Position numbers and translations under genes: made by a program
The notes under the pieces: model-generated
Told to the model about the DNA's origin: nothing
The model's database searches: none
What the model saw: the letters and a program-made list of their open reading frames with translations, nothing else
In this document: positions 58,135 through 64,000 of the stretch, piece after piece
Numbering within the stretch: position 1 is the stretch's first letter
How the letters are laid out: each line of letters starts with the position of its first letter
DNA from: Thermoanaerobaculia bacterium
Lineage (GTDB): Bacteria; Acidobacteriota; Thermoanaerobaculia; Multivoradales; J023
Assembly: GCA_028066595.1 (NCBI GenBank)
Contig: JALCBJ010000009.1
Coordinates: 1 to 64,000, forward strand
Direction: 5' to 3'
DNA: 64,000 bases

Positions 58135-58434
58135 GCCCACACGGATTCTGGCCGCAGGACCGTTCGAGACTGGTCGAGGTATTGCGCCGACAGAGTACAC
58201 AGCGAGACTTGCTCGGCGAACCGGAACCGCGGGCCGCGCGGGCCGATCCGGCATCAGGGATCTCGGCCCGCCGACCGGACCGTACAGTAGACTCGGACTG
58301 TCGGAGTCATCATTCTGTTCATCTCTCGGGGCACCTTCTTGCCAGCTTGGTGCATCGCGGGAGCCCACGATGCATCGGTTCGAGGCGGTATTCTGACTTC
58401 ATGTCCAGGGTACGAACGCGGTTGGAGGAGTGGG
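58135..58434. other. Intergenic region upstream of the DUF3667 gene
   Basis: Apart from a GGAGGAG box (58424-58430) for ATG 58435 I see no gene. Short open frames run through but have no protein character. The region probably carries the DUF3667 gene promoter. Confidence 0.35.
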
Positions 58435-59241
58435 ATGTCCAGCTATCGTCGCAAGACCGACACACTGCCTACCTGTATGAACTGTGGTGCGGTGCTCTAC
58501 GGCGTGTTCTGCTCCCAATGCGGCCAGCGTAGCGCCGAGCCAATCCGCTGGCAGCGTGCCGTCGCCGAGACAGGGCGGCGGCTCAGGACCTTGGACTTCT
58601 GCTGGGTACGTACAGTCGCAGCTCTGACGGTCGATCCGGGGCGGATGATCCGACGCTACCTTCGCGGTCGCCGAATTCCCTACGTCTCGCCACCGCTCTA
58701 CGCCATCGGTGCACTGGCGATCTTTCTCGCCGTGGTCCTCTGGCAGCGTCCGGAGCTGACCGCGCCGGGGACGCCGTGGTCGGTCTTACCTGATCACCCT
58801 GCTTCACCGGTGCACGGCTCGGCTCTGGAGGGCGAGCAGGCGATCGAGCGACCGGCCGATTCGACGGAACGGCTCGGCAGAACCGTCTTTGCACTGTGCG
58901 CCATGTCAAGCCTTCTGGTCGCCGCCCTCACCGCTCTGGTGCAGTCGAAGCTCTACGCGGGACACGATTTCACCTGGGTCGAGACGTACGTATTCGAGCT
59001 CTTCGTGCTCGGCCAGCTCGCACTTCATCAGACCCTCTTCGCTTTACTTGGTGCCTTCGCTTCGAAGATCGGTCTCCTCTCGCTCGCTGTCGTGTTCGTT
59101 CTGTTCCTGGCCTTCGCTCTTTCCGGCTTCTATCGTAGGAGCCTCACCTCGAGTCTCCCTGCGGCGTTGCTCCTGGCGACTGTGCAAGTAGCCGGAGTCT
59201 TCGTGGTTGGGTCTTTCGTTCGGATCGCGCTCCGGGGATGA
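58435..59241 (+). CDS. DUF3667 membrane protein with zinc ribbon
   Basis: Protein of 268 aa. The N-terminal zinc ribbon is CMNCGAVLYGVFCSQCGQRS (two CxxC pairs). A cytoplasmic stretch TVDPGRMIRRYLRGRRIPYV matches the DUF3667 pattern (RRYLxGxRxxYVxP). Four or five transmembrane segments fill residues about 95-265 (PPLYAIGALAIFLAVVLW, VFALCAMSSLLVAALTAL, LSLAVVFVLFLAFALSGF). Function unknown; the family often lies near oxidoreductases. ATG 58435 has a GGAGGAG box; the frame is open upstream. It ends 4 bp from the convergent stop of the TamB-Omp85 fusion. Confidence 0.82.
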   Translation: MSSYRRKTDTLPTCMNCGAVLYGVFCSQCGQRSAEPIRWQRAVAETGRRLRTLDFCWVRTVAALTVDPGRMIRRYLRGRRIPYVSPPLYAIGALAIFLAVVLWQRPELTAPGTPWSVLPDHPASPVHGSALEGEQAIERPADSTERLGRTVFALCAMSSLLVAALTALVQSKLYAGHDFTWVETYVFELFVLGQLALHQTLFALLGAFASKIGLLSLAVVFVLFLAFALSGFYRRSLTSSLPAALLLATVQVAGVFVVGSFVRIALRG

Positions 59242-59245
59242 GGAA

Positions 59246-62200
59246 CTAGAAGGCGTGTCCGAAGCCCAGATAGACCTCGAAATCGTCGTCTTGCGGACGT
59301 CCGTCGAGCGGGAAACCGAGATCCAGACGAACGATTCCGATCGGAGTTTGGGCGCGTAGGCCGAGACCGAGGGAGGCGAAGAGGTCGTCGAGGGATAGGT
59401 CTTCGACCTCATCCCAGACGTTGCCTGCATCGGCGAACGCCACCCCCTGGACTCCCTCCCACGGCAGGGGGAATCTCAGCTCTTGATTGAGGACAAGGAG
59501 CGCCTGACCACCGCGGGCGCGCAGGCTGCCGTCTTCGTTGGCTTCCCGAGGACCCAGGTCTCGGTCGCTGTAACCACGTACCGAGAACGGTCCGCCGGCG
59601 AAGAAGCGCACGCTACGCGGGAGGACGGTCGCCGTGTCCGATAGGCCGACACGAAGGCTCTGCGACCACACCCACGAGGACGACGACCGTTTCGGAGAGA
59701 ACCTCGACAGCGGAGTGAAGTGATTGAGCTGGCCGTAGAAGCGGAGGTACTCATCCTGTTCGGAGATGATCTCTCGTGCGCCCGACAGATCGAGGCTGAG
59801 CAGGGTGCCTCGCTGCGGGTCGAGGATCCGGTCACGGCTGTCCAGGATCAACTGGATTCCGAGGGAAGGCGTCCGCTCCCGCTCGGAAACCGCTACGGCG
59901 GCGGACCGGTCGGTCAGCTCCTGGTCCACGAAGCGGCCGTAGAGTCGACCCTCCAGCTGTGGCCGGAGGCGCAACCTCAATTGCCCGGTGACTTCCCAAC
60001 CCTCGGACTCCAGGCGGTCCTCGGTCTCCTCGAAGACATCCGCGAAAAGCTCCAGCTCAAGGCCGCGATCGGTTAGCCGGGGAATGCGGCTGTAGAAGCG
60101 GGCGCGTTCCTCGTTCTCGCCATAGAGCACCCGCAGGCCGAGATCGACGCCTCGGCCGGTGAAGTTGTTGTCGAGGGCCTCGAAGATGCCACCGAAGCCG
60201 CCTTCGCTTTCCCACCTCCCTCCATAGGCGACCTCGAAGCGAGGCTTCTCGACGAGGTCGAAGACCAACTTCGTTCCTTCGGCGCCATGTTGGGCATCGA
60301 CGGTCACACGCGAGAAAAGCCGGGTCTCGATCAGTCGTCGCCGGGCTTCTGCGACCTTGAAGCGATCGAGGAGTGCACCGGACTCGAGCCCTGTGAGGTT
60401 ACGAATCCAGCTCTCCCGGACGTGTCCGGCGCCGCGGAGCTCGACCTCGCGCAGGACGTAGCGGTTGCCCGGTTCTGCGACCAGTCGAACATCGGTGACG
60501 TGATTGGCACCAGCGTCGATCTCGGAGTGGACTTTGGCTTCGTAGTAACCCCACGAGCGCAAGTCGGCTTCGAGCCGCGCTGCTTCCTCGGCGACCCGCG
60601 TGCTGGAATAGGCATTGCCCGAAAACAGCTCCGTGCTAGGGCTGCGTGTCTCGACTCGTCGCTCGAGATCCTCGGTCTCGAGACCCTCGATCGTTAGAGA
60701 GCTCACTACGCGTCGAGGCCCTGGCGAGAGGCGAAGGCTCAGGAGCCGATCACGGTCCGTCAGCTTGCGACTCGCCACCTCGGCATTGGGGTAGCCCTCG
60801 GCAGACAGGACACTGAGGAGTCTTGCGTCGGCGTCTTCGTCGGCTGCGGCCAGCTTCACGCGCCACAGAGGACTCTCGAATCGGTGGTGGAGAGTCCGGA
60901 TCACCGATTCGGGAAGGTCTGGCTCAACGCCTTCCGCAACGCGGAACTCGAGCTCCCGAAGATCTAACTGACGGCCGGGCTCGGAATGGACGATCACCCG
61001 GCGATCGGAATCGGAATGGCCTGAAGCGAGTGGCGGTCGCTCGACGTTCACTTGCGGCTCGGGATGACCCAAACTCTTCCAGACCCGAACGGCCTGCTCA
61101 CGCATCTCCTGCAACGACGCCTGCTCATAGTAGTCAGCACGATAGAGGCTGCGAATAGAGTCGCGACGGCTGCGTGGCGGTTGCTCACCAGTGAACTCGA
61201 TGACGGCACGCGGCCCCAGATCTACGTCGAGCACCAGGTCGACGTACCCGGGATCCTTGTCCGGCTCGATGTCGGCGCGCACTTTCGGGTCGGGGAAACC
61301 CGAGCGGCGCAGGGATTCCTCGACGTCTACTTCGATGTCAAAGTCGCTGCCATCGGGAACGAGGTCGCCCGGCAGGAATCCTACGGCTCGCCGGATCCGG
61401 CGTTCTGCGACGATCGCCTCACCGTCCTGCTCGGTACATGCTGCGCATCGGATCTCGATGTCGTCGAGGCGCGGCAGGTTTTCATCGTTGAGATCCTCGG
61501 CACCGCCGAGCCGGATCATCTGCTGCAGCGTCAGGCCGTAGTCGATTTCCTCGGTCGTGAATGCCGTGGCCGACATGCGGGGTAGGAAAGCCAGCTCGTG
61601 GAAATCGAGCAGATAGGTCCGGTCCTCAGCCTCGCGAAGGCCGAATGCAGCGGACAGCGAGACGTTGGGCGACAAGTCCTGGCTGACCACCAGCTTGGCC
61701 TCCGGGCTGGACTCTCCGAAGATGCGCAGCGGACGGTATTCGATGCGCGGGCCGGACAGGCTCGAGCCGAGCCGTGACGCCAGCTGGTCGCCATAGTACG
61801 TGGTAAGCCCGGAAGCGATGGCCTGGCTGTCGATCCGACGATCCTCCGCGGCCGTGCTGCCGAAAGGTACGGGTTCGGCTCTCTCCGCGATCAGCCGCCG
61901 GTCGCCGGACGTCGCGATGGAAGGATCTTCGAGAGACGAGGTGGTGGTCAGATCCAGACGGGCCGGAACGTCCGACCTGCCGGAGAACTCCAGTACCGCA
62001 CGATCCAGCCGAACGACCTGGCCCCAAGCATAGACCTTGCCGCCCGGGTCCACTTCGACGCTGCCGCGAACGTAAGGCCCGTCGAGCGTTCCTCCTACCT
62101 CGAGGGGCGCCCAGCTGGCGTGGAGGTCGGCTACGTTGTTCTTGATCCGCACGCCTTCGACCGTGGCGATGTCGAGATCGAGACGCAGGTCGCGTGTCGA

Positions 62201-64000
62201 CTCGGTGGCATCCCCGATATCCAGCTCCGGCGGCTGAAGGAGCAGATTCAATACTTCGCGATCCGGATCGATCGGCCGGCGGAGGAATCCACGTTCGACC
62301 AGGATATTGGCTCCCAGGTCGCCCGGGCGGTCCGGGTACAGCTGCAGGTCGAAGTTGCCAGAGAGCAGTACCGTCAATCCGTAGTCGAGGCGATACCGGA
62401 TGCTGTCGAGGAATCCCGAGAGGTGTGTTTTTCGATCCTCGTCGAGAATCGTACCTTCGACGTCGAGACGGCCTTCGTTGAGGCGTGCATTGGCCTCCAT
62501 GAGCGAGATCACGCCGTCTTCCACCTTCAAACGGACCCTCGGTGAGACGACGCGGGTGGCATAGGGAGAGACCCAGGTGAACGACATGTCGTCGTCTCCA
62601 ACGACTTCGATCTCGGCGGCATGGTCCTCCGGTGTGCCCGCCGCCAGTACCGTGACCTCGGCAAGACCTTGTGCTCTGCCGCCCGCCAGATAGCCGTTCA
62701 GGAGCTCGGCCTCGAGACTGCCGGTGGCGACTGCCGAGAACTCGCTGACCATTTCGAGAATCGGTTGATCCAGGCGCCAACCTGGCTCCAGCTTGACTTC
62801 GGCTTCGACGTCGAGCTCCCGGTTTCCGGTCTGCCACAGGCCGCGTCGAAGCCGCAGCCTCCGATCGGTGAGAGAAACCGTCTGCCGCTCGGCAGATCGA
62901 AAGGTGTGCTCGGCGAGCTGTACCGTCGCGTCGCCGATGAAGATCTCGCCGGTCGACGCAGTGGGATCTTCCGGCCGTATCTCGAGTCCGCCATGAAGGG
63001 ATGTCCGGAGTGTTTCGGAGGGTGGTGCGTTGCCCAGCCACTGGGCGACACCCCCGGTGTCGAGCGCCGGGATCTCGAACGCGACTCGCAGAGGACCGGA
63101 TGCCTTCTGCGCCAGGGGAAGACCACCGACCGTGTCGAGCCCGGGTAGCTGCTCCAGGGCACTGAGCGGCAGATGAGCGGTAAGCGTTTCGACACTCGGC
63201 CCTCCCGGGGGCAGATCCAGCTCCAAGAGGTCCAGAGCCAGCGCGCCGTTCTCGAGTCGTGTGTCGAGGACCAGCCGTTCCACCGTCGGGTGCGGGGAGT
63301 CGACGGCAACACGTAGCTGAAACCCGTCGAGCAGCGCTCGGGTCACGGCCTGGTTCCTGGTGAAATCTGCCTGGCCATCGAGCTCGAACGGAGCGACAAC
63401 GGCCGTTTCCCGACCCTCGGCCTGAATCGTCCCGGTGGCGCGACGCAGTTGCAGAACCGCGTCGGCCAGAGAGAACTCCGCGTCGAAGTCTTCGAGCCAC
63501 GGCCCGGCCGGCTTGCCCAAGCGGCCGATCACCAACCGCCCATCTACCTGGAGGTCTTCTACGCGAGGGACGGTCTGATCGGGGTCGCCCGCCCAAGGTA
63601 GGGAGGCCCGACCTTCGAGAACTACCGTCCGGGCCTCCAGGTCGACGTCCGTCGTCTCCGGCGCCGACACGACCGAGAGGTCTTCGACTTTAAGGCGGCT
63701 CCGCAGCGCCAGGCTCGGGCCGGTCTCATCGGACAGCTCCAGCTCCAGCTCACCGTCGACTCGGCCCTCGACGCCTGGTGCGTCGTTCGGATGGATCGCA
63801 GCGAGCGACGCGAGCTCGAAGCGATCGGCTGCGATCTCGGAACGGAGTTGGCGGCTGACCGGCCGGCCATCGAAGCGGAAGCGGATCGACGAGTCCTCAT
63901 TGGGGCGCCATAGGCCGCTGCCATCGATGTGCGGGTCCGTGACGGTTCCCGTGAGCTCGGTCCGAATGTTGAGTTGGCCCAGCCAGGGGAGTGGAGGAAG
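59246..64000 (-). CDS. TamB-Omp85 (TamA/BamA-like) fusion protein, partial at window edge
   Basis: A single open frame of at least 1,584 codons that enters from the right edge with no stop, so the N-terminus lies outside. Numbered from a GTG at 63670, which is just an internal codon: residues 1-720 are TamB-like (AsmA/DUF490) beta-taco repeats ending in the C-terminal DUF490 core. That core includes GGTLDGPYVRGSVEVDPGGK, VYAWGQVVRLDRAVLEFSG and VVSQDLSPNVSLSAAFGL. Residues about 735-1140 give five POTRA-like repeats; the last contains YVLREVELRGAGHVRESWI, and LFSRVTVDAQ near its end. Residues about 1143-1474 are the beta-barrel, with the Omp85 motif VRFFAGGPFSVRGYSDRDLG and a terminal Phe (GFGHAF). 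TamA and TamB are normally two proteins in the outer and inner membranes; here they would be one chain. No stop or frameshift is seen at the junction (about 61500-61420). Confidence 0.85.
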   Translation of the reverse strand, partial: LPPLPWLGQLNIRTELTGTVTDPHIDGSGLWRPNEDSSIRFRFDGRPVSRQLRSEIAADRFELASLAAIHPNDAPGVEGRVDGELELELSDETGPSLALRSRLKVEDLSVVSAPETTDVDLEARTVVLEGRASLPWAGDPDQTVPRVEDLQVDGRLVIGRLGKPAGPWLEDFDAEFSLADAVLQLRRATGTIQAEGRETAVVAPFELDGQADFTRNQAVTRALLDGFQLRVAVDSPHPTVERLVLDTRLENGALALDLLELDLPPGGPSVETLTAHLPLSALEQLPGLDTVGGLPLAQKASGPLRVAFEIPALDTGGVAQWLGNAPPSETLRTSLHGGLEIRPEDPTASTGEIFIGDATVQLAEHTFRSAERQTVSLTDRRLRLRRGLWQTGNRELDVEAEVKLEPGWRLDQPILEMVSEFSAVATGSLEAELLNGYLAGGRAQGLAEVTVLAAGTPEDHAAEIEVVGDDDMSFTWVSPYATRVVSPRVRLKVEDGVISLMEANARLNEGRLDVEGTILDEDRKTHLSGFLDSIRYRLDYGLTVLLSGNFDLQLYPDRPGDLGANILVERGFLRRPIDPDREVLNLLLQPPELDIGDATESTRDLRLDLDIATVEGVRIKNNVADLHASWAPLEVGGTLDGPYVRGSVEVDPGGKVYAWGQVVRLDRAVLEFSGRSDVPARLDLTTTSSLEDPSIATSGDRRLIAERAEPVPFGSTAAEDRRIDSQAIASGLTTYYGDQLASRLGSSLSGPRIEYRPLRIFGESSPEAKLVVSQDLSPNVSLSAAFGLREAEDRTYLLDFHELAFLPRMSATAFTTEEIDYGLTLQQMIRLGGAEDLNDENLPRLDDIEIRCAACTEQDGEAIVAERRIRRAVGFLPGDLVPDGSDFDIEVDVEESLRRSGFPDPKVRADIEPDKDPGYVDLVLDVDLGPRAVIEFTGEQPPRSRRDSIRSLYRADYYEQASLQEMREQAVRVWKSLGHPEPQVNVERPPLASGHSDSDRRVIVHSEPGRQLDLRELEFRVAEGVEPDLPESVIRTLHHRFESPLWRVKLAAADEDADARLLSVLSAEGYPNAEVASRKLTDRDRLLSLRLSPGPRRVVSSLTIEGLETEDLERRVETRSPSTELFSGNAYSSTRVAEEAARLEADLRSWGYYEAKVHSEIDAGANHVTDVRLVAEPGNRYVLREVELRGAGHVRESWIRNLTGLESGALLDRFKVAEARRRLIETRLFSRVTVDAQHGAEGTKLVFDLVEKPRFEVAYGGRWESEGGFGGIFEALDNNFTGRGVDLGLRVLYGENEERARFYSRIPRLTDRGLELELFADVFEETEDRLESEGWEVTGQLRLRLRPQLEGRLYGRFVDQELTDRSAAVAVSERERTPSLGIQLILDSRDRILDPQRGTLLSLDLSGAREIISEQDEYLRFYGQLNHFTPLSRFSPKRSSSSWVWSQSLRVGLSDTATVLPRSVRFFAGGPFSVRGYSDRDLGPREANEDGSLRARGGQALLVLNQELRFPLPWEGVQGVAFADAGNVWDEVEDLSLDDLFASLGLGLRAQTPIGIVRLDLGFPLDGRPQDDDFEVYLGFGHAF

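Follow-up and report, generated by a model that had tools for sequence, protein, structure and literature searches.

In many Acidobacteriota, TamB and TamA, the two parts of the bridge that normally links the inner membrane to the outer one, are made as one protein of ~2,000 aa. The fusion probably arose at least twice, each time at the same joint, and thereby provides a natural experiment on the way the bridge works. The case described here comes from a window of 64,000 nucleotides, positions 1-64000 of a contig of 116,966 bp (C131) in a genome of 7.5 Mb, where a single frame joins a TamB region, five POTRA domains and an Omp85 barrel. The protein is likely to be a single-chain TAM anchored in both membranes, with a gate strand able to pair with its own barrel. 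Under a wider formulation, the complete TAM would be a single polypeptide integral to both membranes, with its barrel completed in cis by the internal TamB strand, and this fusion, made twice at one joint, would have displaced the two-protein TAM altogether in many Acidobacteriota; the chance of this being correct is about even.

The gene and its full-length protein

The minus-strand frame at 59246-64000 contains no stop and runs past the window edge. The whole single-chain TamB-POTRA-Omp85 gene occupies C131:59246-65377 on the minus strand (window part 59246..64000) and encodes 2,043 aa, the upstream limit of the frame being a GTG at C131:65377 (the choice of start codon is unproven). The first 459 codons lie outside the window and include the inner-membrane anchor at residues ~28-46. 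Directly after the start, RRRWLVRLVIGVLVFTTAMTLSVWWLL reads as a typical signal-anchor, and the protein has one hydrophobic segment only, with a hydropathy peak of 2.07 and RRR before the peak, so that an N-terminal inner-membrane signal-anchor, as expected of TamB, is predicted at residues 28-46. The sequence-only reading had proposed to look for such an anchor by extending the contig, and it lies where that extension leads. The convergent neighbour of the gene encodes a DUF3667 protein (window 58339-59241, plus strand).

The TamB, POTRA and Omp85 families, named by the same reading as the profiles to search, are all matched above their cut-offs. PF04357 (TamB/DUF490) reaches 38.0 bits (cut-off 22.4) over residues 964-1158 (61904..62488, minus strand, as are all features of the gene), covering positions 5-218 of the 381 in the profile. 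PF07244 (POTRA) scores 51.4 bits over residues 1640-1711, and PF01103 (Omp85) 146 bits against a cut-off of 24 over residues 1738-2043. The VRGY motif (as SVRGY) and the C-terminal Phe that had been read from the sequence are both present.

AlphaFold2 (AF2) models were obtained for residues 865-2043 of the window protein (pLDDT 81.8, pTM 0.69) and for a distant homologue, L083 (pLDDT 80.9, pTM 0.64), and they agree on six TamB strands, a linker, five POTRAs and 16 barrel strands. In the window protein, the TamB C-terminal domain, delimited by AF2 and by alignment of a family profile to E. coli TamB, would comprise a helix (residues ~1184-1204, modelled with low confidence) and six beta strands (61508..61828). 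The five repeats and complete barrel announced from the sequence are recovered in the model as five beta-alpha-alpha-beta-beta units followed by 16 strands. By AF2 secondary structure, POTRA1 extends over residues 1303-1386 (61220..61471), POTRA2 over 1391-1466 (60980..61207), POTRA3 over 1475-1551 (60725..60955) and POTRA4 over 1557-1635 (60473..60709), while POTRA5, residues 1641-1710 (60248..60457), is supported by PF07244 as well. The 16-strand barrel, with SVRGY and the C-terminal Phe, covers residues 1714-2043 (59249..60238; PF01103, AF2 and Foldseek). Foldseek aligned the C-terminal part with BamA over all five POTRAs (E 4.6e-41) and with TamA (8us2, E 2.3e-33), and VIA-align of the models against BamA and TamA gave Z values of 20-25. 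A few barrel-only alignments of the window model start near model residue 378, within the TamB domain. As the sole hint of pairing between beta-6 and the barrel, they do not recur with the L083 model and support no claim of such pairing.

Family assignment of the two halves

The hallmarks of the Omp85 superfamily, i.e. a POTRA array, a 16-strand barrel, the VRGY motif and a C-terminal aromatic residue, are all met. Assignment within the superfamily is less direct. The window protein scores 188 bits against the BamA equivalog TIGR03303 (cut-off 297) and 98 bits against the TamA equivalog NF047950 (cut-off 625), so that the BamA model scores higher than the TamA model and both remain under their cut-offs; the three POTRAs of a strict TamA are also not matched by the five found here. 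The Omp85 half is 'TamA/BamA-like' and not TamA in the strict sense, and the original label 'TamA/BamA' stands in that looser meaning only. A plasmid search returned distant Omp85 matches only, the best at 23% identity, with BamA among the ten matches listed.

For the TamB half, model and alignments indicate the six-strand C-terminal domain, ending in a beta-signal-like strand, that is expected of TamB, and the TamB-end profile of the fusion family aligns with residues 898-1249 of the 1,259 aa of E. coli TamB (E ~1e-21). The NCBI TamB equivalog NF047952 has no match listed for the window protein and its cut-off is not met. This model appears too narrow for Acidobacteriota, since the separate TamB of the window genome scores just 17 against a cut-off of 825. 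Assignment of the TamB half to another AsmA-like protein (YhdP, DUF748) was rejected: these matches are weaker, fall under the cut-off and concern the N-terminus only, and the C-terminus aligns through E. coli TamB. No MCE domain occurs among the Pfam matches of the window protein at E 0.01, so the protein is not of the MlaD/MCE type.

The homologue L083 combines PF04357 (119.9 bits over 3-379 of 381), POTRA and Omp85 matches in the same protein and reaches 313 bits with TIGR03303, above the BamA cut-off of 297. Such fusions are therefore probably recorded as BamA in databases, which supports the earlier suspicion that they exist unnoticed under another name. Database genes named BamA can hide whole TAMs.

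The joint between TamB and POTRA1

In the alignment, the last TamB strand of the window protein, beta-6, is a beta-signal-like stretch at residues 1280-1290 (YGLTLQQMIRL, 61508..61540) with the conserved G or GG next to it. A linker of 12 residues (GGAEDLNDENLP, 61472..61507) connects it to POTRA1, and the junction reads YGLTLQQMIRL-GGAEDLNDENLP-RLDDIEI. Stand-alone TamB proteins of Acidobacteriota mostly end in a beta-signal-like strand too, e.g. SYSADARWDSTF, and their final Phe aligns directly before the conserved G or GG of the fusion. Across 64 aligned fusions the strand is kept, often with a terminal aromatic residue (YRFEFRHDLRF, YGSSFRHRFTF); the linker opens with the widely conserved G or GG and counts 10-30 residues (median 15) without sequence conservation. 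A second, smaller clade of fusions retains the strand as well (EYRVEARFRRRYEG), followed by a longer linker of ~40 residues, part of which looks, in our reading of the letters, like a worn-down signal peptide. On this alignment evidence, both clades are joined at the same point, where the final TamB strand is kept and a variable linker leads to POTRA1.

Distribution and origins of the fusion

The fusion is not confined to the window genome. Seventeen full-length relatives, window protein included, share the domain order in frames that are uninterrupted through the junction and measure 1,900-2,300 aa, one frame reaching 2,534 aa by upstream extension. When the whole phylum was searched with the junction region, many further frames of 2,000-2,450 aa were obtained, and in ~70 fetched loci the TamB-end, POTRA-array and barrel HMMs all match one ORF. 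These loci are spread over 29 Acidobacteriota family codes (assigned, like the genus codes, by the search tool); the survey was confined to Acidobacteriota, with genomes that for the most part appear to be MAGs or drafts. Of the 73 fusion rows, 65 have a clear hydrophobic segment at the N-terminus and 71 a C-terminal Phe, the remaining two ending at the edge of the fetched stretch. Among contigs of named records, an alignment query gave 14 matches and a single-protein query none; the named records with relatives are MAGs, most titled Acidobacteriota and several assigned to class Thermoanaerobaculia, the latter being the nearest named relatives. Two loci show an apparent loss of POTRAs: L055:6099-11801 (plus strand), probably the one with the minimal distance of 336 residues from TamB beta-6 to the barrel (median 414), and L132:3704-9271 (plus strand), of 1,855 aa only and with a weak POTRA match.

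The claim of a real TamB-TamA/BamA fusion in one uninterrupted frame is borne out by the conservation of the junction in ~70 loci, its coordinates being cut by the window edge only. Neither of the features that would have refuted it, a stop or a start with a ribosome-binding site between the halves, was encountered: there is no stop and no plausible start. In-frame starts with a Shine-Dalgarno-like site occur at the junction in 5 of 64 fusions, against a background of 9%, and in the window gene there is none; without enrichment of such starts, internal translation initiation at the junction was rejected. The mean hydropathy over 15 residues at the junction has a median of 0.63 in the fusions, against 1.7-2.4 for the signal peptides of stand-alone TamA. 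Judged from these profiles, the TamA signal peptide is lost at the junction, the second clade retaining a remnant at best.

The phylogeny suggests that this arrangement arose more than once. In a careful tree of 50 Omp85 rows (a wider, quick tree was also made), the window protein falls in a large fusion clade (98/95) that is separate from BamA (100/100), and the second small clade (L101, L137, L140 and L143; 100/100) groups with stand-alone TamA-like proteins (99/95). A single clade of all fusions was rejected by the AU test (p = 0.0047), the group having been defined after the first tree was seen. In the TamB tree the second clade also stands apart from that of the window, with weak deep branches. 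Stand-alone pairs show the order tamB then Omp85 partner gene, and from these comparisons the fusion was probably made twice, each time from tamB and the Omp85 partner gene that follows it, a claim that rests on trees with long branches. In all four genomes of the second clade the fusion is the only PF04357 protein, and L101 shows six Pfam POTRA matches.

Other TamB, TamA and BamA genes in fusion-bearing genomes

The window genome carries other members of both families. On contig C135, a separate tamB (1,414 aa) overlaps at its end with the open frame for an Omp85 of 992 aa, and contig C43 encodes a BamA (441 bits against the cut-off of 297) that lies apart from the fusions in the tree. Two more proteins with weak Omp85 domains occur at G000:C192:42310-43041 and G000:C138:46591-47052. 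Fused and separate TamB are found together in 14 of the 35 fusion-bearing genomes examined, including this one. In the other 21 the fused form is the only type of PF04357 protein and must therefore be the whole TamB there; for example, in the single-contig genome G116 it is the sole PF04357 protein, the genome additionally encoding a separate Omp85 in its own frame. Genome G029 encodes two different full-length fusions (L042 and L050; 2,191 and 2,077 aa) from different subclades, with no separate TamB detected.

At roughly 24 of 73 loci, and across distant families, the gene directly adjoining the fusion encodes an exported TPR protein of ~200-290 aa (L042, L043, L045, L046, L047, L083, L085, L122, L123, L128, L129, L138, L139, L141, L146, L147, L150 and L155, among others). 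The two genes mostly stand tail-to-tail, a few bases separating their 3' ends. TPR proteins also include BamD, and the neighbour is a candidate partner. It is not a universal one: it is missing beside the window gene, and the many TPR matches in the window genome yield no clear orthologue.

Proposed mechanism and alternative explanations

In the proposed mechanism, the N-terminal helix, predicted from sequence, would anchor the chain in the inner membrane. Some 1,140 TamB residues would form a hydrophobic groove spanning the periplasm, where membership of the family is established and both groove and lipid transport are inferred from E. coli TamB. The outer membrane would house the C-terminal Omp85 portion. 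Phospholipid, and possibly an OMP substrate, would move along the groove to the outer membrane beside the lateral gate, as in TamAB, and the last TamB strand is inferred to pair in cis with the first strand of its own barrel. The linker of 10-30 residues would do away with a docking step and keep the gate strand permanently at hand. In the usual barrel topology, the last TamB strand descends from the outer face into the periplasm; it would thus end on the periplasmic side near the POTRAs, so that the fusion does not block gate pairing and needs only POTRA1 to be within the reach of the linker from the gate. This scheme builds on what the analysis itself has contributed, namely one conserved frame, the identity of both halves, the retained strand, the loss of the signal peptide and, from the trees, two origins. 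Simultaneous insertion in both membranes, the hybrid barrel in cis, the transport of lipids and the lack of proteolytic processing are inferences for which there is no experiment.

Removal of a stop codon between two adjacent genes by an assembly or sequencing error deserved consideration, since tamB and tamA lie side by side and overlap elsewhere in the window genome and a lost stop in such a pair would look alike. This explanation is refuted by the uninterrupted fusions of related genomes, ~70 homologues from independent assemblies and one of them in a single-contig genome, and no point error accounts for the absence of an intervening signal peptide; what remains of it is negligible. The coexistence of fused and separate TamB in the window genome and 13 others of the 35, like the two fused copies in G029, could instead point to a specialised paralogue, in which the fusion serves one substrate class (e.g. 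an OMP family or a lipid) while the separate pair does the general job. The fusion may have such a job in the window genome because the separate tamB-tamA pair is kept; as a general account this is improbable, given that in the 21 genomes with fused forms only, any general TAM job falls to the fusion. Specialisation narrows the role in the window genome and does not compete with the single-chain reading.

A more substantial objection concerns the fate of the chain after export. It could be a precursor that is cut in the periplasm at the GG or in the linker, releasing TamB and its Omp85 partner as an ordinary two-protein TAM with a fixed 1:1 supply. The linker is variable and short, looks flexible and starts at a conserved G or GG, which with the loose stretch behind it could equally be a processing site; furthermore, without a cut BAM would have to insert a barrel that is still attached to the inner membrane. 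However, the linker has no conserved cleavage motif beyond the G or GG, it differs and is longer in the second clade, and the recurrent neighbours, which were not exhaustively annotated, include no recognised protease gene. Its length is also bounded at 10-30 residues, as expected if the tether matters. Processing is accordingly regarded as unlikely, if less so than the preceding alternatives.

The fusion bears on two open questions, namely how TamB delivers lipids to the outer membrane and whether its last strand pairs with TamA as a working state or only in passing. That a conserved fusion occurs repeatedly at that very strand speaks for TamB and its Omp85 partner functioning as one durable unit, with the last TamB strand remaining a few nanometres at most from POTRA1. 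The fusion also constrains the models: pairing of the gate strand in cis would require POTRA1 to lie within the reach of 10-30 residues from the end of the strand. One gene that reaches across from the inner membrane to the outer is, moreover, convenient for structural work.

Comparison with known systems

No description of a TamB-Omp85 fusion was found in the open-licence literature, most subscription papers and preprints being outside the scope of the search. In E. coli TamAB (PDB 9xdc/9xdd), the last TamB strand pairs with beta-1 of TamA at the open lateral gate while the other terminal TamB strands fold inside the barrel; a second state lacks the strand contact, both states occur in vivo, and TamA and TamB stand at 1:1 (PMC12800296). 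The fusion resembles this system in its predicted inner-membrane anchor, inferred TamB groove, six-strand C-terminal TamB domain, Omp85 barrel and 1:1 ratio. It differs in being one chain with five POTRAs and an internal last TamB strand, whereas E. coli TamAB consists of two proteins, a TamA with three POTRAs and its own signal peptide, and a TamB whose last strand is a free C-terminus. These structures also qualify two inferences of the sequence-only reading. A fixed 1:1 ratio is in itself no novelty, E. coli TamAB being already 1:1 in cryo-EM (PMC12800296). The idea that the TamB C-terminus placed before POTRA1 mirrors the physical contact is incomplete, the known contact being that of the last TamB strand, kept in the fusion, with the first strand of the barrel.

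Closer in phylogeny, a second BamA encoded beside TamB was described in Acidobacteria by Heinz et al. in 2015 (PMC4494059). As in the fusion, Omp85 and TamB sequences are adjacent and the Omp85 part is a duplicate of BamA-like type placed near the root of TamA, and a pair of this kind is also present on C135 of the window genome. The genes are separate, unlike the single frame described here, and the words 'fused' and 'fusion' are absent from that paper. In Borrelia burgdorferi, a hybrid BAM-TAM associates a BamA-type Omp85 having five POTRAs with TamB (PMC13382580, PMC11361582), and completion of the barrel by the C-terminal strands of TamB has been modelled (PMC13382580). The Borrelia system is made of separate proteins and uses its canonical BamA, whereas the window genome has a separate BamA (C43) besides the fusion.

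For the elongated MlaD of Veillonella parvula, one polypeptide has been proposed to be anchored in the inner membrane by a helix and in the outer membrane by a barrel, and to support lipid traffic (PMC10665443). That protein belongs to the MCE family, is modelled as a hexamer with a 10-strand barrel and has a proposed retrograde role, while the fusion has no MCE domain and carries an Omp85 barrel with POTRAs. The long MlaD of V. parvula is thus the nearest precedent for one chain in both membranes, reached in an unrelated family.
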